The translations under genes were made by a program, and so were the position numbers. A stretch of DNA of 64,000 bases. It comes from Amylostereum areolatum. Its lineage: Eukaryota; Basidiomycota; Agaricomycetes; Russulales; Stereaceae. Below, one piece after another: positions 9,848 to 58,069 of the stretch (within the stretch, counting starts at the first letter, position 1; every line of letters begins with the position of its first letter). The notes beneath the pieces are model-generated. The model was not told where the DNA came from and did no database searches. It saw nothing but the letters and a program-made list of their open reading frames with translations. Where the stretch lies: positions 1-64,000 of the forward strand of contig SAXG01000048.1 in NCBI GenBank assembly GCA_012932865.1, in the 5' to 3' direction.

Positions 9848-9855
9848 GGACCAGC
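9848..9855. repeat. Left copy of putative 8-bp TSD (GGACCAGC) of the KDZ element
   Basis: The octamer GGACCAGC lies immediately outside the left inverted repeat and again at 58062-58069 immediately outside the right one. An 8-nt target-site duplication is what I recall being reported for Zisupton, a KDZ relative. A chance octamer shared within about 25 bp on each side has roughly 1% probability. Confidence 0.6.
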
Positions 9856-9861
9856 ACATAA

Positions 9862-9980
9862 CTTAGTCAAATAGACTTGTTGTCAACACATAATTCACAA
9901 GTCTACTAGCGTGTTAGCAACACATACCCCATGGTGGGCCCATAGGGTGTGATGTTACACATGGGCCCACGAGGGCCAGT
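9862..9980 (+). repeat. KDZ left (sub)terminal inverted repeat
   Basis: Pairs with the reverse complement of 57938-58054. The outer part shares CTTAG(T/C)CAAATA. The best block is 9919-9977 against 57943-57997: ACACATACCCCA, GGTGGGCCCAT and GGGTGTG all match, with isolated substitutions (about 30 of 32 in the core). Both ends also contain a second ACACATA(A/C)TTCACA(A/G)GTC word. Overall identity is about 70%. Confidence 0.85.
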
Positions 9981-10007
9981 AATCATCGGAGAGTATCTTC
10001 TCATACT

Positions 10008-10085
10008 GTCGGATAGTTCAGACACCTCCGACGTGTCCATCATCTCCGACGTTCCTGACGGGTCCGACCACTCCGACGGACATAA
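10008..10085 (+). repeat. TCCGAC-rich block, copy 1
   Basis: Contains four CTCCGAC/GTCCGAC words in 60 bp and the phrase ATAGTTCAGACACCTCCGAC. A similar block recurs at 31455-31528 (ATAGTTCAGATACCTCCGAT), in direct orientation and about 75% identical. It lies just inside the left inverted repeat and upstream of the transposase. Confidence 0.75.
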
Positions 10086-10225
10086 TATCCCTTATTGATA
10101 TTTCATCATCCATGTGATTAAGTGTCATCAAATAAACCATCACACTCTTCCATTTGTCCTCTACATCATTCTACGTCCCTCTCATCTCCCATCTACCTTG
10201 TCTCTCATCCTCTTCTCTTTCAGTT

Positions 10226-13200
10226 ATGGGAAGAACAACTATAATCACCCAATCCCGTATCACACAGAACACAGCAAAAATAAACTGGTATGGAACACGC
10301 GTATTTCGACATCGCCCCGTCATCGATAAGGTCAAGCGACCTGCCCCCAACAAACTCAACCTTGAAAAACGAACGCGCACCATCACCAACAGGCGCACAT
10401 CACTAACCGACTATACTCCCAATATCGATGGGATTGGTCTTGACCTCAATGACCAGTGGCAGACTAACATACAACCTTTGCCCTTGTTTCCTCGTCGAGC
10501 TGGCAAGGTGTGTCATACTTTTTTCTCTTTATTTCTTCTTCTTACGACATCTATAAAGACCCAGAATGACCTTATGAAAGAGTGGAAGGCCCGCGCTCCA
10601 CTGTTCTTATCAGTTCTTCTTAGTCTTGAGGCTCCGATCTCTGACAAGTGCTTCGACTGCGGCATCGGAGACGCGAACTGGCGTTGCAAACAATGCTTCG
10701 GCACTCCCAATGTCTGTGCCCACTGCCTTCGCCAAGAACACATGCACCACCCATTTCACTGTGTGCAACGATGGGATGGAGACAAGTTCACAGATGGTTG
10801 GCTCCGAGATGTAGGAGTGTTCATTTCTTTAGGACATGGTGGTAAACCCTGCCCACAAGATCATGCGAAGTCAACAACCAATGTCACGCCTACCCCCCAG
10901 ACTTTATCCACTCCAACGACACCCTGTGCTTCCCATTTGACCCTACCTGATACCCCTCCGACACCGCGTCCCTATACTCCGACGAACCCAACACTCCTAC
11001 CAACACCTGATCCGACACCTCCTCCAGATTCTAGGGAGCCTGCAGAAAACACGGCTGATTACCAAAGCACCCCCCAGTCACTTCCGACACCTACACCCTC
11101 TCCGTCTCATCCCAGATTTCTAGGTGGTGCACAATGTGCTGAAGACGAGGAGGACTTCGAGGTGGACAACATCCTTCCTGCAGCAGTTCCTGATCCTGGT
11201 GCTCCTGGATTCCATGACGCTCTTGGAAACCGAATGATGGTTCTAGCACACTCTACTGGCATCCATCAAATGGGTGTCCATTTCTGTGATTGTCCAGGTG
11301 CTGCTAGTGCAGACCTACAGTTGTTGAAGCTGGGGTTGTATCCAGCTAGCGTCAAGACCCCTAAAACTGCCTTTACAACATCTCTGCTTGATGATGCCAG
11401 CGATGAAAACCTCAACTCAAACACTACAATCAGCTCTTTCTACAATCGCCTCAAAGTAAAAACTTCTCGTGTTTCCCCTCACAAAATTCCAGTGCGTATT
11501 CCTTACATTCAGTTGCAAATGACAGACTGAGATACTCATTCTAGAACCGAGTAAACGAATTGGGACGTGTGAACCGACAATTCCGACATTTGACGTTGCT
11601 GAAACGTTTCGGAGCTTGGAACACCTCCAAGGCGCTCAAACCGGGGCAGCTTTCAATTTTCTGTCCAGCATGTCCCCAGCCAGGAATCAATTTGAAACCC
11701 ACATGGAAAGACGATCCTGACCAGTGAGACATATCAATGTGCATTCACCTAGAACTATACCTAATCCACTTTTAGATTCAAGTATATAGGTACCAGTGCG
11801 CTCGACGGAAACTATAGTGCACAACATGCCATCACCGCAACACCATCGGAGCAGGAGGTCCGACTGGGACATGGTACCGCCTTTTTTGTACCAGAGGCAC
11901 GATACATGACACATCTGAAACTTGCTCAAGAGACAAAAGTGAGTTTCAATATTCTCCATCTGGAATCGGTTTTTTCATGCAAGGAATGTCGCAGACAAGC
12001 AAGGTCAAATGCGTAAACCATCGTGCTGTGTTGCAAGCAGATTCTGAACACAAAGGCTGTGATGTCTCTGGAGTTATGTCAGTTGCATGTGGTGATCATG
12101 GCGCTTGGTTTCCTCTCGGAACTGTAAACTTGCAAAAAGGCGAAAGGTGAGTACACGATGTTGGGTCCGATCTCCTCCGACGTCCTCCGACCGACCAAAT
12201 TTAGACAAGCAAACGTCGACTATGCATTGTGCAGCACCTTCAAACACAACATAAAGGGCCTATCCAAAGTCCTCGCACTGTACGATATCATGTGCCAGTA
12301 TGGCATTCATCTCCGACAAAGAGTCGACGGGAGCAAGTATCTCGACTTTCCTCCTGACTTAGAGCTCATTCAAGGCATCGGAGTGTGGCATGTCCATGGT
12401 CATGTCGACACGTGCTCCCCCAAATTTGCACCTGTATTCATCCCAGGTGTTGGGTATATTGACGGGGAGATTGTGGAGACGCTATGGTCATTTCTCAATC
12501 CAGCCTCTCGCAACTCCAGAAGTATGACTCCAGCCGCACGCGAGGAGAATCTCAATTGGCATATGCTATACTCAAACTGGAAAAAAACCATCGGAATGCG
12601 TACGTCAATGATGTATACCTTTGCTATACATGTAACATATCCCTCCTTTAGCCGCTATGTTGGACCGCCGACTCCGAGATGCGGAACATAATCTCCCCGA
12701 CCACACGCAGTATTACGAGGACTTATGTCGTCAAACAACACCAGAGCAGAAAAACACATGGCTTGAAGAAATGGAGGATGCCTTGGCATGTAGAGAAACA
12801 CGTCGTGATAAAATGGCCATATTCGATGTCCGTATACAACTCGGTAAGACCTCGACACTTATATGTCAACATCTGAGCGTTCCACTGACCGTTACATAAA
12901 ATAGCGCCAGGACAACGAGCTCAGCAGATGGCTTTGACAGAGAAAGAGAAGGCGTTGGGTGGGGGAGAACGTATCAAATGGCTCGCAACCGGGATCAAGT
13001 TATGAGCAGCACAGTATGCCTTTCCCACTGCACTGTTTGTTCCAGGACTTCAACAACATCTGATACAGGCTGACACTTCAAGCAGAAATCCGAAGGCCCA
13101 GCCAAGATGCTTTGACGATCTCTGGTCGCCAGTCCAAGCTTCTAAAACAGATCCAATCCTTTAACGCCAGTGTACGGGCTCACATTGGTCGCGATGGGCT

Positions 13201-14082
13201 CGGTGCTACCTCCAATTTTATTCCACACCTTGACGAAGTTGGAGAAATTGAACTCCTCCCAGTGTCGGAGCCTTCGGACCCCGAGCAGACGCCAAATGTT
13301 CCCGTGGAGCAACGTTCAGTTATGCTTCCATCCGCAATGCCAGAAGCTTGGCGATTGGACGAAAGAAACCATCACATTGTAGAGGAGGAACGGGAGCTTT
13401 GGATAGGTGTCCTCAATGACTCGCTTGGACATATCCGAGATGCGGTCGGTGTTCTTTCGTATCAATATCGGACAGGCGTACGACCTGCGTCGACACAAAG
13501 AGCTGTCACCCGTGCCTACTCTGTGGTTCACAATTCATTGGGTAACCTCCGACAACATGTTCAAGTCTACATGGATGCCCACAAAGCACTCCAAAGGCTC
13601 AACCCCACCCCAGAGTTACTGAACCGTTTCAAAGTACTCACAAAGGAGGACCTTCAAGCAAGCACCGCAATTGTCGATCCGTCAAATCCTCATTCATCGC
13701 GTAACCAACTGGCCTGGTTTTGGCGCATGGACCGTCCTTCGGAGGATTCATCGGACCCAACGTGGAAGGAAGAGTGTAGGGTATACGCCTAAACATCAAC
13801 ACATTCACACTGATTTCTCTACTAGTCCTCCGTGTCAACTTACTACGTTCCAAGGCCAATCTTGATCGGACCACGGAACAGATTGGTAGAGTTCGCGCGC
13901 AAATGGAGAACACCATACGATTCCATAGATACAAGACGGACCAGTGGTCCCGCATCCAAGACAAAGCCAGTCAAAATGGTAATACAGGACAGGCATGCTA
14001 CGCATCACGCCAAATCGCAGTGTGGAGGGGATTACAAGAAGAAGCGGAAGCTGTATTCTCAGTGCATGGTATAAATGTATAA
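10226..14082 (+). CDS. KDZ transposase (one in-frame TGA)
   Basis: About ten exons (10226-10507, 10559-11491, 11545-11723, 11776-11938, 11995-12146, 12205-12599, 12652-12843, 12905 on, about 13070 on, and a last exon of about 13827-14082) give about 1,120 residues. The order is: AGKTQNDLMKEW; a B-box-like cysteine cluster (CFDCG...CKQC...CAHC...H) matching the CxC2 cluster associated with KDZ transposases; a long Pro/Thr-rich insert; then KDZ core motifs. The core motifs are HFCDCPGA, ALDGNYSAQH, VDYALC...ALYDIMCQY, GVWHVHGH and GYIDGEIVETLWSFLN, followed by NWHMLYSNWKK and a C-terminal coiled region. Introns of 51-61 nt keep phase. The single defect I find is TGA at 13003-13005, where relatives have a Glu-rich helix (consensus like GLxLExxQ). 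This copy is therefore probably inactive unless spliced otherwise. Its 3' end lies 20 bp from the convergent gene at 14102. Confidence 0.85.
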
Positions 14083-14101
14083 TACATGCACCCATTCGAT
14101 T

Positions 14102-14663
14102 TCACGCACTCGAGGTCGCCTCCGACGCTGGCTCCGACTCATCTAAGAAATTGGTGAGTTGTAAGATGAAAGAAAAGGAAGGCGCACAACGCACCAGATC
14201 GTGCACGCTTGGCATCCCGACTCCTCGGACTCGATATCCTTCGTTTTTGATGTCCCTGATTGTGGGGTGATGCGACGGGAGGGGAGCGAGAAGGAGGAGG
14301 GTCGTCCAATGAAGGCAAGGCCTCAACCAACGAGTCTTCAGAGCTATTTGACGACACCGACTCCGTGAGAGGGCTTGGTGTACGCGCGAGTGCTTCATCT
14401 CTGGTCATCGGAAGAGAGAGTGGTCTCTGTCGTATTGAGGGAGGGAATGACCGGGCAAAAGCTTCGAATCGTGCTTCTCGATCGTCAACAACGTCGGGTG
14501 CAGGGTTGTTCACTTGTGCTGAGCTCGGAGGGGACTGTTCTTCACCACCGCTAGTCGACGGCGAACTTGCAAAGGTAGGAAATCGAAGTTGCCGTCGTTG
14601 CGGAGGAATGATGACGTCGTCGGAGCCGTCGGACGAGTCGGAATCGGAGTCGTGGTCGGACAT
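14102..14663 (-). CDS. Small acidic, Ser-rich nuclear-type protein
   Basis: Two exons (14195-14663 and 14102-14142), intron 14143-14194 (GTGCGT...TTCTTAG), giving 169 residues. The N-terminus is a run of Asp/Ser (MSDHDSDSDSSDGSDD). The middle is disordered and rich in Ser, Pro and Glu. Near the C-terminus is a bipartite basic stretch (QKRRISSPRSRDAKRARS) that looks like a nuclear localisation signal, followed by an acidic tail. No domain is recognised. It is convergent with the transposase (20 bp apart) and head to head with the gene at 14934 (270 bp apart), so it is placed like the minus-strand partners of the later gene pairs. Confidence 0.6.
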
Positions 14664-14933
14664 GATGACCTAGATAGATTAACGGAGAAAGGGAGTAAGG
14701 TGTGCACACTCACCTGTGTTAGCAGCCCGTCGTGGATGTATAGCAGGACAGATGGTGAAGGTGAAAAGAAAGAAAGAACACAAGGAAAAACGGACTTGTC
14801 ATGCTGACGCGTCACTCACGTGAACCGTGGGAACTTCGGCTAGGCTGCGGTTGACGTTACACTATTTTCTCTTCTTTCTTTCGACATTCCACTCGCGCCT
14901 CGCCCTCCTCGTCCCCCTACTCGCTCTACGACT
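14664..14933. promoter_or_regulatory. Bidirectional promoter region
   Basis: 270 bp between two divergent starts. It contains GCGTCACTCACGTGAACC (about 14809-14826), which resembles ACGTCAGGTCACGTGACC in the divergent promoter at 49298-49515; both are a CGTCA word followed by TCACGTGA. An AG-rich stretch (about 14755-14790) and a CT-rich stretch (about 14866-14890) flank it. Function is inferred from position. Confidence 0.5.
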
Positions 14934-16138
14934 ATGCCACCTCGCGCGGCCATCGACCTGGACCGGTACAAGTTCTCCGACACCGTTCTTCAACAGGAGA
15001 AGGCTTTGTTTCTGGCGCTGAAGGCGTTCCGCGAGCGCGGGACACGCACACCGTCTTCCAGGTTCTGGAATTCTCTCTGCAAAATGCAGGTGTGTCGTGA
15101 TTTCATCTTGTACGATGATCGGCTCACAGTCGACACACAGGAGGACTGTCTGGACGTGATCGGCGCCGAGCTCTCTGCAATGGGCATGGAGACCTACCCA
15201 GCATTCCTCGACACCTTCTACCACAACATCTCCGACGACTCAGAGGCCGCAGTTATCACGGAGAAGCTCGATAACTTCGACATGTCACTTTACCGACGCG
15301 ACTGGGCAGGAGATGTTGTCCCCATGTGGTGGACCGAGCCCAGTACGTTCTTTTTTGTGACTTTCCATCTGGTTTCTGACTTTAGCAGACATGTGGAAGA
15401 AGAACAAGAAGGGCCATGCCTCCCAGATGTCTACTCCCGCCCCCGACAATCCTTCCTTCCCTCCCCCTCTGTCGACATCTATCCCCGACCCTGCACCTCC
15501 GACCCCGCCCGCTCCGACGGCTCCGACGGCTCCGACGGCCAACGACACCACCTCGAACAATGGGGGATGCCCCGCACGCGGTCAGTCTGGAACCCCGCCG
15601 ACTGTCCAGGCCGCCGTCAAGAAGGGCCCTCCCGCGAAACACGTCAAACCCGAACCTCGTCACAGTGGGGCGGCGGCATCGACCAAGGCCAAGTCGCCCA
15701 CCACGGACCCTTCACCCGCCCAGCCTCCCAACCCACAGGTATCTGCCCCCAAGAAGTCGAAGCCCAAAGGCACCGCCAAACGCTCGTCAACCACGCCGTC
15801 GGCAACCACCCCGGCCCCCACCATGCCAACGCTGTCGAGTTCGACGCCCCCCCCCACCCCCGACTCCGAAGGGCCCGACACCACCGCCTCCTCCAGGGCC
15901 CCCCACCCAAGTCAACGCCGCAAAATGCGACAGACACGATAGGTCCAACGCCGACGGGTCCGACGCCGACGGGTCCGACGCCGACGTCTACGCCTCCTCC
16001 CAAGCATTCTGGTCCGTCCAGCACTCGACTACAGCCCCGGATTGCTCATGCCGATAAGGGGCAGAGTACACAGCCAGCAGTCAGTGCCTCGTTGTCAAAG
16101 GTACTAGTGTGTTCTACTTGAGCACCAATGACTTCAAC

Positions 16139-16558
16139 TGTCACGGATCGCTCCATTTCTCTCTTCGTTTGCAGACCTCGTACACGCGACGCGTCACGGC
16201 ACATGACTTTCCCTTGCATCACATGCTTCAACGACGTCATTGCCCGGACTTCCGAGCGGGGTTCCGCATCCTTATCTATGACATCATCGCTCCGGACCTT
16301 CGTCCTCCACCCCATGACTCCTTTCTTATTGTTCCCCCCGCTCGCACCACTATTGCATCGCATCGCACCATCGTACCCACTTGTATATAAGGACAGTGTT
16401 TCTCTTCCCTTCTCCCTAGACTGTCCATCTCGTCATACGGTACTGTAGCACACGTTGCACTACCCTAGACCCCGGCACTCTCGAATCTACTCTCTTCTCG
16501 CTCCTCCCATCGTCGCGACTTAGGCGGTTCATCGGTCTCATAAACCGCGTTTCTGACA
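16139..16558 (+). repeat. Gypsy-1a first LTR (420 bp)
   Basis: Begins TGTCACGGATCG and ends GTTTCTGACA, with 5-bp inverted ends TGTCA/TGACA. It is preceded by TCAAC and followed by CCAAC, an imperfect 5-bp TSD. The TATA box TGTATATAAGG is at 16382-16392. One base differs from the LTR at 22759 (G versus A near 16235). Followed not by Gypsy-1 leader but by host-gene sequence, so it now looks like a solo LTR. Confidence 0.9.
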
Positions 16559-17984
16559 CCAACTAACACATTCTATCCTCCAGCTTCGTACTTCCTCCCT
16601 GCCCCCACAGATCTCACCCCCCAGCCACCTCAAGCGCAAGGCAGATGAAGTCGGCGGCTCCCTCTCTCCTGACAATGTTGACACTTCGCTGTCTCAAGGT
16701 CCGAAGCGTCAGAAGCTCGCCATTCCTCATCGGGAGGGTGAGTATTTTCTTTTCTCTTTGCTCACATACTAACACAGATCTTTCGGTTAGTGTTAACAGA
16801 GGCTATGCTCGTGTCGGCCCTGAAGGCAGTCGAAGGATGTCAGCAACGACTAGTGCGACAGCACCAAGTTACGACACAGCTGACTAGAAGATGAGGACGA
16901 CAGAGGGGAGCCGATCAGACACGGCGACAGACGAGGGAAAGCAAGCAAAGTCGGTAGAATTGACTAGCTCGAGATAAGGAATATGTACAGCGAGAGCGAG
17001 CCTTATATACACAAGAGGAGAGAGACTTAGGTAAGCAACCAATACACGGCGATCAGTAAGCAGACCAAGTATAAGTAAGCAGTCGTATGTAAAAGAGCAC
17101 AGCATGAGTCAGTATCGTACAGCATGAGTCAAGAGAAAGGAGTCAGACCCGGACCGAGATGAGTCACGTGGGTCCGGGCGGGATATAGATGAGCCGGGTC
17201 CGGGCCAAGGTGGAGCCGGACCGGTGATAAGTCGATAAGTCCTAAAGCGTGTAACCGATGTAAAGTAAAAAGAAAATTATAGACCGTTCATGACATCACC
17301 CCTTCCTTAGATTCGACGTCCTCGTCGTAATCAGATCCAGTTTCTTCCTCCGACAGGAGTTTCCAACGATTAAGGCGTGCAGGTTTCGGGGCACCCGGAT
17401 GTTCACGGTGGAAGTCGTCAATGCGTTTCTTGGCATTCTGGAGATTGGTGAGAGGCTCCCAAGTATTGTCATTGTCTGGGTAGCCTTTCCATTTGACGAG
17501 GTACTTGAAGCCGCGACCAACCTTCTTGGAGTCTATAATCTTTTCGACCTCATAGACTTCCTCTCCTTGGACTAACTCTGGCGGTGGAGGTGTAGGTGCT
17601 TTCTGATTGTCAAAGGCGGGACCGTTGTGTGGAGATAGGAGGGACTCGTTGAAGACCGGATGTTTTCGTGACCAGGATGTAGGGAGGCGAAGCTTGTAAG
17701 CCGATGCTCCGACTTTTTCCAGGATTTCGAAAGGACCAAAGCGCTTGTCATCTAGCTTTTGCATAGGACGTGCCATTTTGATTACGGTTTGGCCATCTCT
17801 GGTCTTGGCTTCCAGCCAGACGAAGTCGCCAATTTTGTAATCTATTGGTTCGTCCTTCTTGCGATCGTAAAAGCGCTTTTGATCGTCCTGTGCTGCCTTT
17901 AGCGCAGAGCGGGCTTCCTCATAGATGTCTCGCATGCGTTGTGCAAACTCGTTCGCCGATGGGTTGTCTGTCTCACGTCGACCC
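16559..17984. repeat. Duplicate of 23179-24604 (gene exon, Gypsy-2 LTR and pol end)
   Basis: Base for base this segment appears identical to 23179-24604. It contains a copy of the 3' exons of the split family gene (to 16837), a Gypsy-2 LTR (16838-17295) and the C-terminal part of Gypsy-2 pol on the minus strand (chromodomain region, 17288-17998 open). At 17979-17982 it switches, at the shared tetranucleotide TCGA, to Gypsy-1 gag sequence equivalent to position about 51716. Confidence 0.9.
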
Positions 17985-18735
17985 CACGCCCCCAACACTC
18001 CACTATAGCTCCTACAAAGAGCTCTTCGAGAGGTTTGGCAAAGACTTCGTGCCCGTCGACCCGAAGATAGAGGCTCAGCGTAAGATCAACGAGCTCGCAA
18101 TGACCACCCGGGACGTCACTGACTTTATCACCGAGTTTGAGATGCTGGCAACCATGTCAGCGTATGACGACGAGGCGCTAATCCACTTTTTCAAAAAGGG
18201 ACTTCAGCGTGACCTCGGCAAGCAGGTGGCCCGGTTGTACCCGTTCCCCACCAAGCTCGCGGAGTGGAAGGAGCGCGCCCGCCGCATCAACCACCAGTGG
18301 CTCGAAGAGAACCCGGAGAGGAAGAGCAGTCAGTCCAAGGGGGCTGTCGCGCTCACCTCAAACGGTTCGACCAACGACTCCGCGTCACGCCGAGTTGGCG
18401 CCTTCACCAACACCTCGACCCGCCCTGCAAAGCTGACGGACGACGAGCGCGCGAAGATGATGCGCGAAGGCAAGTGCTTCATGTGTCGACAAGCCGGTCA
18501 CGTCTCTCGCGACTGCCCCAACCGCGATTCGAGCGCGCGACGAGTGGGCGCAGTAGAGACTGGGTCCAAGGCCCCTCCCCTGCCGACGAACACGGCTCCG
18601 TCCACTGCGAAAGCAGCTCTCGACCCGTCCAAAACCATCGCGGCAATCACCCGCCAGCTGAAGGATCTGGACGTGGAAGGTAAGGGACAGGCAGTGGCAC
18701 TGTTGAAGGATATCCTGGAGTCGCAGGATTTTTGA
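17983..18735 (+). pseudogene. Gypsy-1a gag, N-terminally truncated
   Basis: Continues in frame from the chimeric junction. It encodes the retrotransposon gag helical region (YKELFERFGKDFVPVDPK and following) and a zinc knuckle C-x2-C-x4-H-x4-C (CFMCRQAGHVSRDC). It ends with TGA at 18733-18735 in the context GATTTTTGA, the same gag stop as in Gypsy-1b. Confidence 0.8.
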
Positions 18736-22826: not shown

Positions 22827-23178
22827 CTTTCCCTTGCATCACATGCTTCAACGACATCATTGCCCGGACTTCCGAGCGGGGTTCCGCATCCTTATCTATG
22901 ACATCATCGCTCCGGACCTTCGTCCTCCACCCCATGACTCCTTTCTTATTGTTCCCCCCGCTCGCACCACTATTGCATCGCATCGCACCATCGTACCCAC
23001 TTGTATATAAGGACAGTGTTTCTCTTCCCTTCTCCCTAGACTGTCCATCTCGTCATACGGTACTGTAGCACACGTTGCACTACCCTAGACCCCGGCACTC
23101 TCGAATCTACTCTCTTCTCGCTCCTCCCATCGTCGCGACTTAGGCGGTTCATCGGTCTCATAAACCGCGTTTCTGACA
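22759..23178 (+). repeat. Gypsy-1a 3' LTR (420 bp)
   Basis: Same ends as the first LTR (TGTCA...TGACA). A polypurine tract AAAGGGGGGGTAA precedes it directly. TATA box at 23002-23012. Confidence 0.9.
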
Positions 23179-23452: not shown

Positions 23453-23457
23453 AAGGA
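23453..23457. repeat. Gypsy-2 left TSD (AAGGA)
   Basis: AAGGA abuts the element here and again at 30974-30978. Both lie inside one reading frame of the split family gene. Confidence 0.95.
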
Positions 23458-45663: not shown

Positions 45664-45862
45664 GTCCGAGTGTGGAATGAGTGGCAGATGAATGTGAATG
45701 TGAGTGGTGTGTATGCCACGTCACGCAATGTTGACCGTCGGAATAAGCCGAGATTTTGATCGGGAAGTGCCGAGGGACGCGATTTGCGACAAGTCGTTCA
45801 ACAAGTGCTCTCTTCTCGATCAATCATTGCCCTCCCCTTGGTTGCACTCCATCCACTCCATT
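45664..45862. promoter_or_regulatory. Bidirectional promoter of pair 1
   Basis: 199 bp between divergent ATGs. Contains TGCCACGTCA at 45714-45723, 51 bp from the minus-strand start. The same decamer occurs at 49355-49364, 58 bp from the minus-strand start of pair 2. Confidence 0.55.
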
Positions 45863-47418: not shown

Positions 47419-47553
47419 CGTGTACAGACTTGGACACTGTATTCAAAACATACGGTATTAAAAACATACAGACGTTTGGTGACATTGTACAGTGAAAAGG
47501 ACCCGGTATTGTAACCCATATGCCATCATGGCCCCCAACGCTACTCCACCCAA

Positions 47554-49297
47554 TTACTCATTCTCCGACACCTCCGACTCGTCGTCGACTTGAATTGTAC
47601 CCTGCAACTTGATTGGAGGGAGCCCATGGCTGGAGGAAACGCCCAGCGAGGGAACATTCCCAGAGGTGGTCAAAGTCGGCATCTTCTCGAGGCGTTTTGG
47701 TGATATGTTGATATCTATAGTAGTCAGCCCAGAACATGTCGTCTATTACCTTTGCACGTTGCCTCATCTTGACCACGGACTCCAGGAGGCGAGAAGTCTC
47801 TGCCTCCTGCTCCTTTAGGTCAGAGACAATCGCCTTGACCGACTCTTCGAATGCATCCAGGGCCGTATCGGCCTGGTTGAGAACCTGCTCTTGCAGCAGC
47901 AGTCCCCCGCGTCGAGCAAGGCCTTGAACAAACCTGCCGAAGGCGGCAGATTCCTCCTGCAGGTCCGCTTCGGCTACCGATGCATGAGTTCCGTTGGAAT
48001 AAGAGAGAAGACATTACATACCTTGTTCACCATGGACGGCGTCAGAGTAGGGGTCGTCGTCATTACTCTCCTCCTCGTCGGAGGAGTACCGGAAGACCAC
48101 CTTTTGGGCTGCACGACGCTGCGGGCGAGGACGGTGAGCGTTCGCGGTGTTTGTCGGACTCGGAGGATGTGTGCTGGCGGGAGGAGTCGTCGGAGTGGAT
48201 GGGGGAAGGGCAGGGCGCCAGAGAACTTGCTTCGGAGCGTGTGGAGTTTTGCAGAGGGCGAGGTATGCTTGTTTTGTTGTTCGGGTGGTCTCCTTGGTCT
48301 TGTGCGAGCAGTCAAGGCCATTCTCGATGCAATGGATGCACGACCACGCACGGCCGCTGTTCCAGCACCCCACACCGGCTTCTTTGCATGAGTAGCATGA
48401 TTGCTATTCGAAGCAGGTGAGTTCGTGAAGAAGAACAAACAAAACGGACGGAACGTACCTCGTTCGTCCACCAGGACGGATGCAGGGGGTCGGTATAGAC
48501 TCTGTCGGCGACGTCGGACACAATGGCGCCAGAGGCTGGCACAGGGGGTGGCAGCCTAGGTCGAGACTTTGACCTCGACAAAACTTCGGCGCCTTGGTAA
48601 TCGGAGTCGGAGTCGTCGGAGGCAGACGGATCGGAGTCGTAAGGGACTCGAATGTGTGGGCGTGTGATTTGGAGGGGTGGCGTAAGATAAACAGTGGGGG
48701 GGAGATCCGTGCTGACGGTGGAAGGGGCGGACAGTGGGCTGTTCAATACGTTCAGCTGAGGGGGGGGGGAGGGTGATGTCGAGTGAAGTGTCGGCGTCGG
48801 CGATCGGAGCCATCGGCGGGTTCCGCGACGTGGGGGAGATGATGTTCTTCACCCAGAATGCTGCATACAAATGGTAAGAATGGCATGCGAGCAGCACGGA
48901 GCGCCAACACACCTCTATGCCCGTGATCCGCGGCCACCTCCCACCACCTCCGTTTGGTGACCAGCACCAGGTTGATGGTGCATGCACGCTCGACCCGACC
49001 ATCCCGAGAGCGTTGGACGTTGAAGAGGGCTGTGATAAGCTGGGGATACTCATTGATGTTCAGGGCGCGGGCCTCGTCAATGTAGCAGGCCAGAATTTGT
49101 TTCTAGACTTGTGTTAGAGTGAGTCAGAAAAGAAAAAAGAAACGCACAAAGTAGCGGCTAAATGCCTTCCACCACTTGACGTTCGGCTCTCCTTGTGTGT
49201 TGGTGAGCGCGTGTACTGCGGTGAGGAGCTTGGCCTCGAGCCACACGAATGTCGGTGAAAATGGGTGACTGTCGACGTCGAGAGGCGGGGAGGACAT
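47554..49297 (-). CDS. Zn2Cys6-like coiled-coil protein, minus-type (pair 2), frameshift in a G10 run
   Basis: Parallels the gene at 43759 exon for exon. Order: module with FVWLEAKLLTAVHALTNTQG and KWWKAFSRYF; then LACYIDEARALN and NVQRSRDGRVERACTINLVL; FWVKNIISP; an acidic middle ending HPSWWTNE. The cluster exon is CYSCKEAGVGCW, CIHCIENGLDCS. A coiled coil follows (LLLQEQVLNQADTALDAFEE and following), then a tail ending DDESEVSENE and stop TAA at 47554-47556. Between FWVKNII and the acidic part the frame shifts at a run of ten G (about 48750-48759); nine would keep it open. Whether this is a real mutation or a sequencing slip cannot be told. Head to head with 49516 over 218 bp. Confidence 0.7.
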
Positions 49298-49515
49298 GGC
49301 GATGAAAGGAGAAGAGGAGCAGCCCACAGAGCGAACTGACTTAATGTGCGGTGTTGCCACGTCAGGTCACGTGACCATCTCGGCAACGGCCGACCTAAGC
49401 AAACGCGTCTGCCGACGAGTCGCGTCACACCCTCTTCCTCACCGCCCCTTCCCTTCCCTCTCCCCTGTTAACGTCTTTTTTCGCGTCTCCCATTGTTCCA
49501 CTGTCCCCTGACACC
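49298..49515. promoter_or_regulatory. Bidirectional promoter of pair 2
   Basis: 218 bp between divergent ATGs. Contains TGCCACGTCA (49355-49364) running into GGTCACGTGACC, a palindromic CACGTG box. Related words occur in the promoters at 45664 and 14664. Confidence 0.55.
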
Positions 49516-50381
49516 ATGTCAGTCGTTTCGGATGGCCCTCCAACCGTCATGCGCCTGCAGTACGCGCTCGCCTATGCGCTGGCGGTGTCTAGGAGGCCGA
49601 GAAAGGATGGACGTGTTTTTTTGCCTGTGTCAACGTGGTGGGACCGTTACATGGAAGAGATGGTGCGTCCTGTTTTTTTCCTGCTTACTCTGGGGCTTAT
49701 TTTCGCGAAAGGTTGACGAGGCCCACATCCGATCGGAGCTGTCGGCGCACGGCGTGTTCAGCGGGTCGGAGCCCGACATCCACCCCATATTCGACATTGC
49801 GACCCCCAACATTGCTCAGCGGATTCTCGCCTTCAAGACCATTGACCTGCGTATTCCCACCCTCAAGCCCGGGGGAGAGCAGTGGTGGTCGCGCGGAGGT
49901 GTGTGGCATGTGAATATTGCCTCCGATGTCCCACTGACCTTTCGTCCCAGAGTTCTATCGCAGTGTGGACAACTCACTGAATGCGCGTGACCATTCATTC
50001 TCCCCCCCAGCCCCCAAGACGAATGCCATCATCACCGCCCCTGCCCCTGCCCCTGCTGCTGTTGTTTCGACCTCTAGACCTGCTCCGAATACCGACGGCT
50101 CCGACTCCGACAACTCCGAAGAGGGTGGCGCATTCATTGCGCCCCCCATCAAGCGACGTACCTTGAAGGTGGATGCCTCCGCACCCACGCCCATGGACGT
50201 CGATGAGGAAGGAGCCGAGCCGATGGCTGTGGACGACGTGGAGGTCATCCAGTCGGATGAGGACAGTGTCCATTCGATTGACGGCAAGGACTGGCCCAAT
50301 CAGGTGCGTACTCGTCTCCTATGCATTGTATAATATCTCATAGCTCGCTAGACTCCCTGTGATCGGTGCAGGAAAACCGAC

Positions 50382-50386
50382 GAACC
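50382..50386. repeat. Gypsy-1b left TSD (GAACC)
   Basis: Same five bases at 56922-56926. Confidence 0.95.
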
Positions 50387-50807
50387 TGTCACGGATCGCT
50401 CCATTTCTCTCTTCGTTTGCAGACCTCGTACACGCGACGTGTCACGGCACATGACTTTCCCTTGCATCACATGCTTCAACGACGTCATTGCCCGGACTTC
50501 CGAGTGGGGTTCCGCATCCTTATCTATGACATCACTGCTCCGGACCTTCGTCCTCCGCCCCATGACTCCTTTCCTATTGTTCCCCCCCGCTCGCGCCACT
50601 ATCGCATCGCATCGCACCATCGTTCCCACTTGTATATAAGGACAGTATCCCTTTTCCCTTTTCCTCAGACTGTCCATCTCGTCATACGGTACTGTAGCGC
50701 ACGTTGCACTACCCTAGACCCCGGCACTCTCGAATCTATTTTCTTCTCGCTCCTCCCATCGTCGCGACTTAGGCGGTTCATCGGTCTCATAAACTGTGTT
50801 TCTGACA
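50387..50807 (+). repeat. Gypsy-1b 5' LTR (421 bp)
   Basis: TATA box TGTATATAAGG at 50631-50641; predicted transcription start about 50665. Confidence 0.95.
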
Positions 50808-51442
50808 CCTGGACAGTCTACCCCTACGCCTACCTCGCACCCCTCTCTCCATCTACCTCTGCCGTCTCTACGACGTTAAAAACCCCCACCCCGAACCTTC
50901 CCCCAGGCGTCTTTCGAGACTACTGTCCTGAAGAGTACTATATCCTCACCTCGCAGCAGACTAAGGAATCCGTACGTTGGCTGCACGACGAACCAAACCG
51001 GCAACGTCGAGACTGGTACTTCGACGACCGCGACGAACAACCCTACGTCGAAGAATCGGATTTTGCCACCGCTGCGGACGTTCTACAGCGCTTCCTGAAC
51101 CCCCCTCCGACCAACTCGCCCCCACCCCGTCGACGTACTGTAATCGAAGTCCCAGAAGGGATCAACCACAACGACACAACTGGGAAGTGGTACGCCTATA
51201 GACGGAACAAGAACGGAACCCCAGGACGATCAGTAGTTGAGTGGCAGCTCACTTCGTTCAGTCCCGTCCAAGATCACTGGTCGTGGCATCATAACCAGCA
51301 ATTCCTCACCCCCGCCGACTTCCTTATCGCAAAACAAGTTGAGGACGAAGTTGAAGAAGCAGAAGAACGCCGACGAGAAACCCTACGCCGCCTTGATCAA
51401 GAACTCGCCCAATCCCTCACCGTCCCCCTCCCCTTCGACAAG
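50808..51442 (+). other. Gypsy-1b ATG-free leader, open in the gag frame
   Basis: From the predicted transcription start (about 50665) to the Gag ATG at 51443 there is no ATG in any frame, against about twelve expected by chance. The gag frame has no stop over these 211 codons. It reads as protein-like sequence, for example FRDYCPEEYYILTSQQTKES and EWQLTSFSPVQDH, ending in a charged helix. Confidence 0.75.
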
Positions 51443-52468
51443 ATGTCCGACGCCGAATCCAAACCTGCCGTCTCCAAGCGGGAGATCGGCCCCAAGCCAA
51501 AGCCATTCAAAGGCGATAGACGCGACACCCTCCGGTTCTCCCTCGAGCTCCGCATGTTCCTGCGCGTTAACAAGGATGTTTATGCCACAGATGACGCCAA
51601 GATGATGCTCCTCCTCAGCCTGATGGAGGACGACACGGCGAAAGCCTGGGCCACGCATCGCCGCATGGAACTCTTCGCCGACGAAGACGAGAAGGAAGAC
51701 GCCGACACCCTCGACCCCACGCCCCCAACACTCCACTATAGCTCCTACAAAGAGCTCTTCGAGAGGTTTGGCAAAGACTTCGTGCCCGTCGACCCGAAGA
51801 TAGAGGCTCAGCGTAAGATCAACGAGCTCGCAATGACCACCCGGGACGTCACTGACTTTATCACCGAGTTTGAGATGCTGGCAACCATGTCAGCGTACGA
51901 CGACGAGGCGCTAATCCACTTTTTCAAGAAGGGACTTCAGCGTGACCTCGGCAAGCAGGTGGCCCGGTCGTACCCGTTCCCCACCAAGCTCGCGGAGTGG
52001 AAGGAGCGCGCCCGCCGCATCAACCACCAGTGGCTCGAAGAGAACCCGGAGAGGAAGAGCAGTCAGTCCAAGGGGGCTGTCGCGCTCACCTCGAACGGTT
52101 CGACCAACGACTCCTCGTCACGCCGAGTCGGCGCCTTCACCAACACCTCGACCCGCCCTGCAAAGCTGACGGACGACGAGCGCGCAAAGATGATGCGCGA
52201 AGGCAAGTGCTTCATGTGTCGACAAGCCGGTCACGTCTCTCGCGACTGCCCCAACCGCGACTCGAGCGCGCGACGGGTGGGCGCAGTAGAGACTGGGTCC
52301 AAGGCCCCTCCCCTGCCAACGAACACGGCTCCGTCCACTGCGAAAGCAGCTCCCGACCCATCCAAAACCATCGCGGCGATCACTCGCCAGCTGAAGGATC
52401 TGGACGCGGAAGGCAAGGAGCAGGCAGTAGCGCTGTTGAAGGACATCCTGGAATCGCAGGATTTTTGA
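51443..52468 (+). CDS. Gypsy-1b Gag
   Basis: 341 residues from the first ATG of the transcript (context ACAAGATGT, A at -3). MSDAESKP is followed by a basic stretch (KPKPFKGDRR), the gag helical domain (FSLELRMFLRVNKDVY; KAWATHRRMELF; YKELFERFGKDFVPVD), and a zinc knuckle (CFMCRQAGHVSRDC). It stops with TGA in GATTTTTGA. A T5 run lets tRNA re-pair in the -1 frame, giving entry to pol. The frame is also open upstream through the leader and LTR, so an N-terminally extended form from a near-cognate start is possible. Confidence 0.88.
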   Translation: MSDAESKPAVSKREIGPKPKPFKGDRRDTLRFSLELRMFLRVNKDVYATDDAKMMLLLSLMEDDTAKAWATHRRMELFADEDEKEDADTLDPTPPTLHYSSYKELFERFGKDFVPVDPKIEAQRKINELAMTTRDVTDFITEFEMLATMSAYDDEALIHFFKKGLQRDLGKQVARSYPFPTKLAEWKERARRINHQWLEENPERKSSQSKGAVALTSNGSTNDSSSRRVGAFTNTSTRPAKLTDDERAKMMREGKCFMCRQAGHVSRDCPNRDSSARRVGAVETGSKAPPLPTNTAPSTAKAAPDPSKTIAAITRQLKDLDAEGKEQAVALLKDILESQDF

Positions 52469-55400
52469 AACGCCCCCCAGTCGCGTCGTCTGGTGGAGGC
52501 AAAGGACTTTTGGTATCATCGTCGAATCGTTTCGCTGTATTATCATCCATGCATACCTGTGAGCAATCGTATCCCCCGTGTCTGTATCTGTCTACTGTCA
52601 CCAAGAACAGGCAAACACCATCGATCACGCTCAAAGTCAAGCTGATCGGACGAGTTACCAAAAGAGAAATCGACGCAGACGCGCTGCTTGATAGCGGCGC
52701 AGAAGGAATTATCCTGAACCGAAGCTTCGTTGAACGCAAGAAGCTCACCACAAGAAAACTAGAAAACCCGTTCCCCGTGCGTAATGTGGACGGCACCGAG
52801 AACATCATGGGCTGGGTACGCGACACAACGACCCAGCGGATCCGGATATACTCGCAAGATTCAAAGGCATACCATGAGGAAGAAGCTGAGTTCTTCATCA
52901 CCGACATCGGCGATCATGACATGATCCTTGGAACAGACTGGCTCGATGAGCACAATCCAACCATAGACTGGCAACGAGACCGTGTTGACATGCTCCGCTG
53001 CCCTCCCTCATGCACTCTGTCCAAACCTCCTGTGACGAACCTCGCGACCAAGCCACGGAAACCATCATCGGTCCAATCACAGCGTAAGGTTGAAGCGGGT
53101 AAAACCCCGAGGACACCTCTCGTCGTGGACGATCCCTTCCCAGAGCCGACATATGTGTCCTGGACCCCAGTCCCCACTTATGTTATTCCTGCACGCAGAG
53201 TCAAAGGTGTTCGCGTCCGCACGGTCCATCGCTCCCCTCTACCCGCACGACTCTTCACTGAAGACGACGATGAGCGGCCCATGGTATTCCGAGACTGGGA
53301 GATCAATGGACTACGCCACGCCGGAATCCTCCCTGAAACCGATGGTCCTAATCCAGATGCAATACCCATCCGCGCGGGCTTTACAAAGGCGCAGGAGCTT
53401 GCAGAGCATTCAAAAGAGAACGCACGCCCGCAAACCTTTGAAGACTTAGTCCCCCCGCCGTACCGCGACTTCGTGCCTGTATTCGACAAAAAAACCTCCG
53501 AGCGACTTCCTGACCGACGACCATGGGACCATGCTATCGACATGAAAGATGGCTTTGAACCCAAACCGTGCAAAATCTACCCCCTCTCACCTTCCGAGCA
53601 GATCGAACTCGACACCTTCCTCGACGACCACCTGAAGAAGGGCTATATCCGCCCTTCGAAGTCACCTCAGGCGAGTCCGTTCTTCTTTGTGAAGAAAAAG
53701 GATGGAAAGCTGCGTCCCGTACAGGACTATCGAGAATTAAACAAGGGCACTGTCAAGAATGAATACCCCTTGCCACTGATCTCTGAAATTGTCGACCGCC
53801 TCAAAGGTGCAAAGATCTTCTCCAAGATGGATGTTCGCTGGGGCTACAACAATGTCCGCATCAAGGAAGGCGACGAGTGGAAGGCTGCGTTCAAGACGAA
53901 TCGCGGTCTCTTCGAACCTACGGTGATGTTTTTCGGGCTTATGAACTCCCCTGCGACATTTCAGGCAATGATGAATGAACTGTTCAAGGATCTCATCGAC
54001 TCGGGCAAAGTCATCATCTACATGGACGACATCTTGGTGTTCACTCGCACCATGGACGAACACCGTGCCATAGTGCGGCAGGTTCTGCAGCGTTTGCAAG
54101 ACAACGACCTCTTCCTCAAACCGGAGAAATGCGTCTTTGAACAAGACTCTGTCGAATACCTCGGACTCATCATCTCGCACGACAAGATCGCTATGGACCC
54201 CGTCAAGGTAGCAGGTATTCAGGACTGGCCGACACCACGAACGGTCAAAGATGTGCAATCCTTCCTCGGCTTTGGCAACTTCTACCGACGTTTCATCAAG
54301 GACTTCTCCAAGGTGGCACGGCCCCTATTTGATCTGACAAAGAAGGACTGCACATGGGACTGGTCGACGGACTGCCAAACTGCGTTTGACGCACTGAAAG
54401 CTGCGTTTACTTCCTCCCCCGTCTTGGTCATGCCTGACCCAAAGAAGCCTTACCTCGTTGAAGTCGATGCCTCGGACTTTGCTACTGGAGGTATACTCTC
54501 GCAGAAAGGCGACGACGGTCACTGGCATCCAGTGGCGTATCTGTCCAAGGCCCTATCGGAACCGGAACGGAACTACGACATCTACGACAAGGAGCTGCTT
54601 GCAATCATCCGTGCGCTTGAAGCCTGGCGCCACTACCTCGAAGGCGCCCCCGACACCGTCGAAATCTGGACAGATCACAAGAACCTGGAGCACTTCAAGA
54701 CGGCACAGAAGCTGAGCCGCCGACAGGCACGTTGGGCTCTATTCCTCACTCGATTTGACTTCTCGCTCGTTCATAAACCAGGAATTTCCCACCGCCCGGA
54801 TCCAATGTCTCGACGACCCGATCACAAGGATGGTGTTGAAAACGACAACAAGGAGCGCGTCTTGCTTGACCCCAAGTACTTCCAAGTATGCGCAACAAGG
54901 CCAGGAGCAGTAACCTCCCTCGGTGATGTCGAACTCCGACGACGTATCCGCGACTGCAAAACCAAGGACATCGAGGTCGTTCAAGCCCTGGACGCCATCT
55001 TACGAAACGGACCACGTACACTTGTCAAGAACCTTCAAGAGTGGAACTACGAAGAAGGCCTGGTCCTGTTTAGAGGAAAGGTATATGTCCCTGCAGACGA
55101 CGAGTTGCGACGCGACATTGTCAAAATGTACCATGAATCGCCCCTGGCTGGACACCCTGGTCGCTTCAAGACTTACGAGCTTGTGAGTCGTGAATATTGG
55201 TGGCCTGGCATGTCTGTCTTTGTCCGCGACTTTGTAACAGGATGCGCAACCTGCCAGTCGACGAAGACACAGAGCAGCCGACCCCACGTCGACATGATCC
55301 CAAACGAAGTACCCGATCGACCATTTGGCGTCATCTCCACTGACTTCATCGTCGAACTCCCTGACTGCGAAGGCTATAACGCCGTCAATGTCGTGGTCGA

Positions 55401-56556
55401 TCGCCTCACCAAGATGGTGGTTACCACCCCATGTACAACGAAGATCACCAGCGATGGCACGGCCGACATTCTCTTCAATAAGGTATATCGACACTACGGC
55501 TTAGCAGACAAGATCATCTCGGATCGTGGACCCCAGTTTGCTGGACAGGTGATGCGTACACTCAACGAGAAGCTCGGGATCAAGTCCGCCCTCAGCACAG
55601 CGTATCACCCACAGACAGACGGCCAAACCGAACGCGAGAACCAGAACCTCGAGCAGTTTCTGCGAGTATTCTGCAACTACCGTCAAGACGACTGGGTGAA
55701 GTGGTTGCCCTTCTTCGAGTTTTCTCACAACTCTCGCACCCATGCAGCTACTGGAAAGGCTCCCTTTGAAGTCCTCTACGGCTTCCTCCCCAAGATGTAC
55801 CCGTCCGTAAACCCATCCTCAAAGGTCCCTGCAGTTGAAGAACGCCTCCGTCAACTTGAAGAAGTCCGACAAGAGATCAAAGCCAGCCTTGCCCTCGCAT
55901 CTGACTTAATGAAGCACTACAATGGTGACACGATCAGCAAATCGACACTGTTCGCCGTTGGAGACAAGGTCTGGCTCAAAGGCAAAAACCTGAAGACGAC
56001 GAGGCCGAAAGCTAAGCTTGCTGCCAAACGATTTGGACCCTTCGAGATCGTTGACGTCATTAGCCCAGTGAACTACCGCCTGAAGCTGCCGAAGACGTGG
56101 AGAATCCACCCAGTCTTCCATGCTTCGCTGCTCACCGCATACAAGGAGACGACGGCACATGGTCCAAACTATGAACAACCGCCGCCTGACCTCGTTGATG
56201 ACGAAGAAGAATATGATGTTGAAGACATCATCGACTCGAAGCCGACCCGCAACAAGAAAGGCATACAATACCTCGTCAAGTGGGCAGGCTATCCTGACTC
56301 CGAGAATACCTGGCTCCCTCGCTCCTCGCTCTCAAAAGTCACCGACATGATCGACGCCTTCCACAAACGCCATCCAAATGCGCCCCGCCCTGTGCGTTCC
56401 CTCGGCATCTCCTTTGACGATTTCCTCGCATCTACCCTTGCAGATGACATTGCGCTCCAGGCGAAAGCGCGTCTTAAAGGGCGGGTAATGTCACGGATCA
56501 CTCCATTTCTCTCTTCGTTTGCAGACCTCGTACACGCGACGTGTCACGGCACATGA
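52465..56556 (+). CDS. Gypsy-1b Pol polyprotein (PR-RT-RH-IN-chromodomain)
   Basis: Read in the -1 frame from the gag end (KRPPVASSGGGKG), about 1,363 residues. Protease ALLDSGAEG; reverse transcriptase YPLPLISEIV...IYMDDILVF; RNase H VEVDASDFATGG; integrase zinc finger GHPGRFKTYE...CATCQSTK and core SDRGPQF; GPFEIVDV; chromodomain YDVEDIIDSK...YLVKWAGYPDSENTW. No stop or frameshift. The frame ends inside the 3' LTR at 56554-56556. It is about 95% similar to Gypsy-1a in protein. Confidence 0.92.
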   Translation: MKRPPVASSGGGKGLLVSSSNRFAVLSSMHTCEQSYPPCLYLSTVTKNRQTPSITLKVKLIGRVTKREIDADALLDSGAEGIILNRSFVERKKLTTRKLENPFPVRNVDGTENIMGWVRDTTTQRIRIYSQDSKAYHEEEAEFFITDIGDHDMILGTDWLDEHNPTIDWQRDRVDMLRCPPSCTLSKPPVTNLATKPRKPSSVQSQRKVEAGKTPRTPLVVDDPFPEPTYVSWTPVPTYVIPARRVKGVRVRTVHRSPLPARLFTEDDDERPMVFRDWEINGLRHAGILPETDGPNPDAIPIRAGFTKAQELAEHSKENARPQTFEDLVPPPYRDFVPVFDKKTSERLPDRRPWDHAIDMKDGFEPKPCKIYPLSPSEQIELDTFLDDHLKKGYIRPSKSPQASPFFFVKKKDGKLRPVQDYRELNKGTVKNEYPLPLISEIVDRLKGAKIFSKMDVRWGYNNVRIKEGDEWKAAFKTNRGLFEPTVMFFGLMNSPATFQAMMNELFKDLIDSGKVIIYMDDILVFTRTMDEHRAIVRQVLQRLQDNDLFLKPEKCVFEQDSVEYLGLIISHDKIAMDPVKVAGIQDWPTPRTVKDVQSFLGFGNFYRRFIKDFSKVARPLFDLTKKDCTWDWSTDCQTAFDALKAAFTSSPVLVMPDPKKPYLVEVDASDFATGGILSQKGDDGHWHPVAYLSKALSEPERNYDIYDKELLAIIRALEAWRHYLEGAPDTVEIWTDHKNLEHFKTAQKLSRRQARWALFLTRFDFSLVHKPGISHRPDPMSRRPDHKDGVENDNKERVLLDPKYFQVCATRPGAVTSLGDVELRRRIRDCKTKDIEVVQALDAILRNGPRTLVKNLQEWNYEEGLVLFRGKVYVPADDELRRDIVKMYHESPLAGHPGRFKTYELVSREYWWPGMSVFVRDFVTGCATCQSTKTQSSRPHVDMIPNEVPDRPFGVISTDFIVELPDCEGYNAVNVVVDRLTKMVVTTPCTTKITSDGTADILFNKVYRHYGLADKIISDRGPQFAGQVMRTLNEKLGIKSALSTAYHPQTDGQTERENQNLEQFLRVFCNYRQDDWVKWLPFFEFSHNSRTHAATGKAPFEVLYGFLPKMYPSVNPSSKVPAVEERLRQLEEVRQEIKASLALASDLMKHYNGDTISKSTLFAVGDKVWLKGKNLKTTRPKAKLAAKRFGPFEIVDVISPVNYRLKLPKTWRIHPVFHASLLTAYKETTAHGPNYEQPPPDLVDDEEEYDVEDIIDSKPTRNKKGIQYLVKWAGYPDSENTWLPRSSLSKVTDMIDAFHKRHPNAPRPVRSLGISFDDFLASTLADDIALQAKARLKGRVMSRITPFLSSFADLVHATCHGT

Positions 56557-56921
56557 CTTTCCCTTGCATCACATGCTTCAACGACGTCATTGCCCGGACT
56601 TCCGAGCGGGGTTCCGAGCGGGGTTCCGCATCCTTATCTATGACATCACTGCTCCGGACCTTCGTCCTCCGCCCCATGACTCCTTTCCTATTGTTCCCCC
56701 CCGCTCGCGCCACTATCGCATCGCATCGCACCATCATTCCCACTTGTATATAAGGACAGTGTTTCTCTTCCCTTTTCCCTAGACTGTCCATCTCGTCATA
56801 CGGTACTGTAGCGTACGTTGCACTACCCTAGACCCCGGCACTCTCGAATCTATTTTCTTCTCGCTCCTCCCATCGTCGCGACTTAGGCGGTTCATCGGTC
56901 TCATAAACTGCGTTTCTGACA
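56489..56921 (+). repeat. Gypsy-1b 3' LTR (433 bp)
   Basis: Carries the extra 12-bp duplication near 56605. TATA box at 56745-56755. Confidence 0.95.
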
Positions 56922-56926
56922 GAACC
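56922..56926. repeat. Gypsy-1b right TSD (GAACC)
   Basis: Second TSD copy; coding sequence of the cluster exon resumes here. Confidence 0.95.
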
Positions 56927-57667
56927 GTGCTGGTTGACACCAGGGAACAGCACATTGTGCTCTCAGTGCCAGTTCCGAAAGCAGGCATGCAGCCACTCGC
57001 AAAAGAACACTTTTACTTCCTACAAGAAATGGCTTGAGCTTCGGGCCGTGAAAAAGGTAAACCGGATTCCACTTTATCGGCGACCTGAGAAAGGCCCCGA
57101 TGAACGTGCTCCGACCCCGACGGCTCCGACGGCGGGTCCTTCTCGGCGGACCAAGGCGAAAGTCATAGTCGAGGTTGACGCTCCGATGAAGACCCGGGCG
57201 GCGAAGAAGGACAAGGGTAAGGGTGTTTCCCGTGCCACGAAAGGTATATTTCCGCTTTTTTTCTCTTTTGTTCTTTACTTTCTAATTTGTTTTTCACTTT
57301 TGCAGGTTCGATGAGTGACCTTGATGCTAGAATCGGGCACCATCTCGAAGCTTTCACGGCAACTCTGCTTGAGGCCATGAAGTCGGAGCAGGAGCAAACG
57401 GAGAAGGCCATCCAGGACGCCCTCAAGCCTGTCGTCGATGGCATCGCAAAACTCAAGGCGAAGAACAAGATGGTCTTGTATGAGCTCAACGAGCTCCACA
57501 AGTTCATGGGAAGTGTTGCCGATGATGCTGGCGAGGTTCGGGACCAGGCCGAGGCGGTGCAAGAGCAGTTAAAACGTGTGTTCGGCGATCAGGGTGGGGA
57601 GGAGGGGGAAGAGAAAGGGGGCGAAGAAGGGGGCGAGGATGAGGATGAGGATGAGGATGAGGAGTGA

Positions 57668-57937
57668 ATCTTGTACTGTAGACAGGTTATCGAATGTTCA
57701 AATCGTGTTCATGCTCATGGCTTGAGATCTGAGAGGTTCGGCACGCCGACGAACACACGCCGACAGGGTCCAACGAGACCAAGGAGTCCGACGAGACCAA
57801 GGAGACGGGGTCCGATGGGGTCCGATGTGTCCGACCGGCGACAGACTCCGACATTCGCCAGACCACGAACTAATAGTATTTAATTGCTACATTTCTACTA
57901 TAGGTTCACTTAACTATGACTTCAACTAGTGTATACA
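57668..57937. repeat. KDZ right internal non-coding region rich in TCCGA words
   Basis: 3' flank of the last family gene. 57740-57870 holds repeated GTCCGAYG, CGCCGAC and AGACCAAGGAG units. No gene. Confidence 0.7.
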
Positions 57938-58054
57938 TGAAGCCCTCCATGGGCCCACGTGTGACCACACCCCATGGGCCCACCGTGGGGTATGTGTCGG
58001 CAACACCTTATTTGACCTGTGAAGTATGTGTCTCAATGTCCTTATTTGGCTAAG
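57938..58054 (-). repeat. KDZ right (sub)terminal inverted repeat
   Basis: Reverse complement of the left repeat at 9862-9980; see there. Ends TATTTGGCTAAG, matching CTTAGTCAAATA of the left end with one change. Confidence 0.85.
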
Positions 58055-58061
58055 GGAGGTC

Positions 58062-58069
58062 GGACCAGC
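58062..58069. repeat. Right copy of putative KDZ TSD (GGACCAGC)
   Basis: See 9848-9855. Confidence 0.6.

Follow-up and report, generated by a model that had tools for sequence, protein, structure and literature searches.

A stretch of 64,000 nucleotides from Amylostereum areolatum contig SAXG01000048.1 (the window, whose positions serve as coordinates throughout) contains an unusually gene-rich DNA transposon of the KDZ superfamily at positions 9855 to 58061. A KDZ transposase gene lies just inside its left end, as a previous sequence-only reading of the window had noted. This gene is of the CxC2-KDZ type and is followed by a gene termed X and by five further genes termed M, A, B, C and D, of which A-B and C-D form divergently arranged pairs (Table 1). 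All genome searches were conducted in one genome of 57.1 Mb, in which the window copy is called C126. It is close to certain that 9855-58061 is one KDZ transposon, because other copies share its ends with their subterminal inverted repeat, 7-bp duplications flank the insertions, uninterrupted target sites are found, and the CxC2-KDZ gene resides at the left end.

Table 1. Features of the giant KDZ transposon in the window.
Feature	Position	Strand	Remarks
KDZ transposon	9855..58061	+	48,207 bp including nested insertions; ends common to genome copies at 99-100%
Left target-site duplication	9848..9854	.	GGACCAG, 7 bp
Right target-site duplication	58062..58068	.	GGACCAG, 7 bp
Left (sub)terminal inverted repeat	9862..9976	+	from alignment
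Right (sub)terminal inverted repeat	57942..58054	-	from alignment
CxC2-KDZ transposase, ~9-10 exons	10151..14079	+	10 mapped coding segments; compared with C140, 1 stop and 1 gap
Gene X, 5' part; N-terminal domain homologous to gene A	14844..16138	+	conserved part 14952-15347
Nested chromodomain (Ty3/Gypsy-type) long terminal repeat (LTR) elements with duplicated, chimeric stretch	16140..30973	.	lacking in C140 and C114
Uninterrupted site (ATTGAGG) targeted by another copy	27100..27106	.	from C56b left and C140 right flanks
Nested 7-kb element, short inverted ends TAGAGCTCTTCACG	31679..38679	.	matches 58191-64000 at 99.9% identity over 5.8 kb
Gene M, multi-exon	40712..43424	-	2 gaps relative to C140
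Gene A, 5 exons; Zn2Cys6-like cluster and coiled coil	43762..45633	-	
Gene B, paralogue of D; Zn2Cys6-like	45872..47415	+	
Gene C, paralogue of A	47557..49270	-	
Gene D, paralogue of B	49546..57667	+	fourth (zinc-cluster) exon split at 50386/56918 by nested retroelement
Nested chromodomain LTR element	50387..56917	+	holds uninterrupted site of C114's insertion

The inverted repeats that had been proposed for both ends are confirmed by alignment. The left repeat and the reverse complement of the right one give a local score of 100, whereas 1000 shuffles reached 27 at most, and a 32-base core (from 9920) is identical at 30 positions. An identical octamer had also been reported outside both ends. 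The octamer GGACCAGC does occur on the forward strand of the window at 9848-9855 and 58062-58069 only, but an 8-bp duplication must be rejected in favor of one of 7 bp, because C172, C114, the C140/C56b pair, C56a/C4 and C53 agree at just seven positions. The eighth base matches because the element begins with C and the right flank has a C there by chance. Comparison with other copies thus shifts the boundary by one base, and the element begins with CACATAACTTAG and finishes with AAGGGAGGTC.

The left end (window 9840-10110) has seven matches in the genome at 99-100% identity and the right end has ten, with the window counted in each case. Every left end starts with CACATAACTTAG, and all ten right ends but that of C34 close with AAGGGAGGTC. 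The first 6.3 kb, or transposase block, is present in seven copies at 98-100% (C126, C140, C114, C56b, C56a, C172 and C128), and is split into two pieces in C172 and in C128. Four copies (C126, C128, C172 and C114) carry both ends and matching 7-mers on one contig, which supports the original proposal that the repeats mark opposite ends of a single unit; a search for a different boundary, or for separate partner ends for each repeat, found neither. The 7-mers are identical at all seven positions in C126 (GGACCAG), C128 (ACATCAT, with the ends 82 kb apart) and C172 (GGTGTAC), and at six of seven in C114 (GCTCTTC/GCTCTGC).

Other copies are less simply arranged. Both ends are present in C140 (C140:196584-215340) and C56b (C56:899997-918744), which have each other's 7-bp duplications (TAGCCAG and ATTGAGG). 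This swap can be either a real, reciprocal ectopic exchange or a switch by the assembler between near-identical repeats. The 7-mer at the left end of C56a, ATCGAGC, recurs at a right end on C4, and both lie near contig ends. Right ends without a left partner are found in C84, C7 and C34; the first two reach contig ends or nearly so. In addition, four short relatives of 5.3-6.5 kb have similar ends, with duplications that match at seven of seven positions in C27 and C102, at six of seven in C104, and just with a one-base shift in C168. C168 (5.9 kb; L018, L062, L053) and C27 (6.5 kb; L016, L063, L049) look non-autonomous, because KDZ is reduced to fragments in both.

Uninterrupted target sites are preserved within the window itself: sequence comparison reveals that flanks of other copies match retroelements nested inside the window element. 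The left flank of C56b corresponds to window 25606-27106 (99.8%) and the right flank of C140 to 27100-28567 (99.2%). These matches overlap by exactly ATTGAGG, in a single occurrence, and the duplication is therefore measured as 7 bp. Similarly, the flanks of C114 match 54268-53403 (98.2%) and 53407-51907 (98.3%), which leaves an uninterrupted site near 53401-53407. These empty sites of other copies reveal both boundaries of the element. An empty allele of the window's own site is absent from the assembly, where the matches are the two occupied flanks of C126 only.

The window blocks that are collinear with C140 and C114 at 98-100% (9855-16139, 16554-16838, 30974-31678, 38680-50386 and 56918-58061) comprise about 20.1 kb of the element's own sequence, and nested elements comprise about 28 kb. 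A size of roughly 20 kb before nested insertions, as estimated from the sequence alone, therefore agrees both with these blocks and with the independent copy C114 (20,723 bp). The C140 copy is 18.75 kb. The nested insertions of the window are missing at those places in C140 and C114.

The KDZ domain of the transposase is located at 12203-12574, and the exons of the C140 copy that match the window score with both CxC2 (PF18803, E 2.1e-22) and KDZ (PF18758, E 8.1e-25). The element thus combines a KDZ domain and CxC cysteine cluster with a duplication in the 7-8 bp range of the superfamily. Models of genes A, B, C and D have five exons apiece and include a Zn2Cys6-like cluster and a coiled coil; relative to C140, genes C and D have two gaps each in the window. 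Similarity in matching exon segments is 51-56% between A and C and 27-40% between B and D. Seven aligned zinc-cluster sequences share the pattern CX2CX6CW..CX2CX6CXH, and the Zn2Cys6 spacing CX2CX6CX5-12CX2CX6-8C fits all seven. The most frequent Pfam family, Zn_clus, is matched in five of the seven (best E 0.0028), and matches of these proteins in PDB are weak. The 3' part of gene X is probably located on the far side of the nested insertion that begins after 16138. An hhalign comparison of the N-terminal 90 columns of X and A yields a probability of 94 and an E of 1.5e-7 (best of 60 column-shuffled controls, 1.9), and the two genes are therefore homologous in this region.

Gene M encodes about 750 residues in a partial model. 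Its N-terminal core bears a weak resemblance to an HMG box, which we keep as a lead only; the fold of the C-terminal exon (predicted local distance difference test, or pLDDT, 37.8) was not used. Pfam scans of the proteins between the ends recognized no transposition domain beyond KDZ.

The sequence-only reading had described the genes as an array carried by the transposon, and this description proves stronger than originally stated, because further KDZ families contain these genes in an identical arrangement. Three families, that of the window, C53 and C118, share the order KDZ(+), X(+), M(-), A(-), B(+). The window family has an additional C-D pair, and thus five X/A-D members as compared with three in each of the others. 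The transposase of the window is 58% identical to that of C53 and 72% identical to that of C118. The element at C53:15319-33431 is complete and measures 18,113 bp, with exact duplications (CGTGACA) and termini CACATA..GGGGTC, so that the terminal bases CA..TC are common to C126 and C53. C118 has the identical gene order, with a right end that is recognized by sequence similarity only. The window transposase is also 37-43% identical to those of three other KDZ loci (L004, L006 and L008), and gave no match at E 1e-3 to five more, which were compared over short loci only.

The association between gene M and KDZ extends beyond these families. The 46 matches to M collapse to 28 loci, of which six belong to the window family. 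At least 16 of the 22 others are within 20 kb of a KDZ locus from a set of at least 105 that were collapsed from the matches listed, and such proximity covers at most 7.4% of the genome. The corresponding binomial value (3.5e-14) overstates the linkage, because the 22 loci do not each represent an independent insertion from an independent family. KDZ is on the expected side and strand in 15 of the 16 linked loci (the misfit is C179:116298). For the M locus on C104, a KDZ about 10 kb away was revealed only by the search with the transposase block. In 18 of the 22 loci, M has a zinc-cluster gene at a distance of 1.3-1.7 kb; this does not hold at C139:1129864, C138, C96 and C146.

Comparisons between families suggest that the encoded proteins have been maintained. 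The proportion of synonymous differences (pS) is 0.61-0.99, which is near saturation, and the ratio of nonsynonymous to synonymous proportions (pN/pS) ranges from 0.22 (KDZ, C118) to 0.85 (X, C53). Amino-acid identities are 60-72% for KDZ, 49-51% for M, 46-47% for A, 42-43% for B and 28-37% for X, where the between-family figures for B and D rest on 59-65 codons.

On this basis, 9855-58061 is very probably one copy of a giant KDZ-superfamily transposon with accessory genes that would serve the element. Within this one genome, sequence comparison gives good support to the view that the genes are a resident accessory set rather than a random load from the host, because their order is conserved in three KDZ families and the encoded sequences remain conserved despite saturation at synonymous positions. 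By analogy with the superfamily, a DDE-type KDZ transposase would bind the ends, excise the whole unit and insert it with a 7-bp stagger. The domain features of M and the X/A-D family suggest that they may be DNA-binding accessory proteins, which would work for the element and not the host through end recognition, control of the element's own expression, or escape from silencing. After insertion, the window copy decayed as LTR elements and another transposon inserted into it, breaking D and probably X.

Several observations weigh against this interpretation of the genes or of their kinship. The non-independence of the M loci has been mentioned, and the left end of C118 was searched for and not found. 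Gene M has no Pfam match, and its predicted structure is poor (mean pLDDT 56.8). The best Zn_clus score of 18.1 bits is below the Pfam cut-off of 21. Homology of B to X and A is less secure than that between X and A, since hhalign gives a probability of just 60.6% for B and A (best control 1.15) and just 6.7% for X and B (best control 1.74). Subterminal TCCGAC/TCGGAC arrays, which were considered as binding sites for the zinc-cluster proteins, found no support, because interior windows equal the ends in counts. X and D are weakly constrained even between families (pN/pS 0.85 and 0.73 versus C53). Within the family, differences over all genes are nearly unconstrained, with 20 synonymous and 45 nonsynonymous between C140 and C114 (pN/pS 0.68) and 21 and 48 between C140 and the window (0.69); for gene A alone, the ratio is 3.1 and 1.24, respectively. 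Selection on the accessory genes is therefore visible between families only, and inserted copies decay.

These near-neutral substitutions within the family, together with proteins that have no recognized transposition domain, are what would be expected if the genes were passengers taken from the host, to the benefit of the host or of nobody. Starship elements are large fungal units that carry such cargo and are moved by a tyrosine recombinase encoded at their 5' end. The window element is likewise large and cargo-carrying, but its first gene is KDZ, and no recombinase family was found among the 18 open reading frame segments scanned. Passenger status is quite improbable given that identical genes, order and strands are kept in three families whose transposases are 58-72% identical, that the proteins are constrained while synonymous sites are saturated, and that most M loci elsewhere are close to a KDZ. 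A second alternative is that the repeated ends result from segmental duplication or an assembly artefact, and that the 48-kb unit was never mobile as a whole. The swapped 7-mers of C140 and C56b are as ectopic exchange or assembler switching would give, and the unpartnered right ends on C84, C7 and C34 also fit. This idea is barely credible, however, in view of the distinct 7-bp duplications at C126, C128 and C172, the single-copy target sites at two places, and the independent C53 family with its own exact duplication.

A different possibility accepts the unit as real and regards X and A-D as products of an arms race: self-expanding regulators that act as decoys and repress the element or its rivals without aiding transposition. 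Their expansion in the window lineage (five members versus three) and their evolution at a faster rate than KDZ are consistent with this proposal, which we regard as rather unlikely; nothing in the sequences distinguishes a repressor from an activator.

Algae are already known to contain giant KDZ elements with accessory genes, and fungal KDZ elements to carry TET/JBP (PMC12477816, PMC12730594). Kyakuja (KDZ) transposons of Agaricomycetes carry TET/JBP cargo and have 7-bp duplications and 5'-CA..TG-3' termini, with no inverted repeats reported in the available portion of the source (Kojima 2025, PMC12730594). As described there, they share with the window element the KDZ transposase, the duplication length, the 5' CA terminus and an internal accessory gene. 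However, the window element has TC rather than TG at its right terminus, an inverted repeat, and M and X/A-D genes in place of TET/JBP. Zisupton and Dileera are defined in the same paper by an 8-bp duplication, whereas empty sites reveal 7 bp here (PMC12730594). KDZ1-KDZ3 of Cryptococcus neoformans, for which movement has been demonstrated, likewise come from a fungus and carry long inverted repeats of 139-241 bp, but they are 9-11 kb, have CxC1 instead of CxC2, and are flanked by duplications that measure 8 bp for KDZ1 and 4-8 bp for KDZ2 and KDZ3 (PMC12810828).

The size, extra genes of mostly unknown function and nested insertions of the window element resemble those of giant algal KDZ elements, which reach 30.3 kb in Ectocarpus and include a 31.7-kb Chlamydomonas element observed moving (PMC12477816). 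There, nested insertions are often fixed among copies, whereas those of the window are missing from C140 and C114. All intact KDZ genes of Pleurotus ostreatus are preceded by a CxC2 region, as is the window KDZ; the available text of that account describes no element ends, duplications or accessory set (PMC7641404). Our literature search did not recognize the gene set of the window element in any of the papers that it covered, and the founding KDZ paper (Iyer et al. 2014) may contain such genes.

TET/JBP has 27 matches in the genome, 13 of them above the cut-off, and none is in C126. At least 20 of the 27 are within 5 kb of a listed KDZ, but none is within 20 kb of any of the 28 M loci. The window transposase is 37-39% identical to those of two KDZ genes that have a TET/JBP match 3-10 kb away. 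A KDZ lineage may possess a second self-serving toolkit beside TET/JBP, in which an HMG-like M and self-duplicating Zn2Cys6-like X and A-D proteins would attach to the DNA of the element itself and either maintain its expression or assemble the transposition complex. On this reading, the two cargo types exclude each other in this genome, as might be expected of alternative responses to host silencing, and multiplication of the A-B pair takes place inside the element. This proposal is tentative, and we consider it somewhat more apt to be wrong than right. If M and A-D are indeed element-specific DNA-binding proteins, they represent a fungal case of transposon-encoded regulators that evolve by duplication within the transposon.

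Whatever the function of its genes, the element has defined boundaries and several copies, and its termini, duplication length and empty sites have been measured, which makes its ends and every gene testable. It also shows that giant KDZ elements can hold accessory genes as long-lived, ordered components rather than as chance cargo, and it provides a non-TET accessory set for comparison with the TET/JBP set of the same genome.

At C4:5206-18429, to the left of a right end of the window family (29174), lies another KDZ element, which contains M and zinc-cluster genes. The arrangement suggests that one giant KDZ element may be nested within another on this contig.

Among the nested insertions, the 7-kb element has a second copy (58191-64000) about 130 bp to the right of the KDZ element, and the inner copy apparently has an 8-bp duplication, TAGCCCGA. 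Three of its reading frames have no Pfam match. A 1.84-kb stretch occurs twice at 99.9% identity, 6620 bp apart (16139-17981 and 22759-24601), and consists of an LTR, 285 bp of the KDZ element, a second LTR and part of a retroelement. It is either a chimeric duplication within the nested retroelements or an assembly fault. Left of the KDZ insertion is ordinary host sequence, including part of a nucleoporin gene at 5262-5948 (Nup84/107, PF04121, E 3.8e-14), and an imperfect tandem repeat with a unit of about 55 bp is present at 3784-4060.

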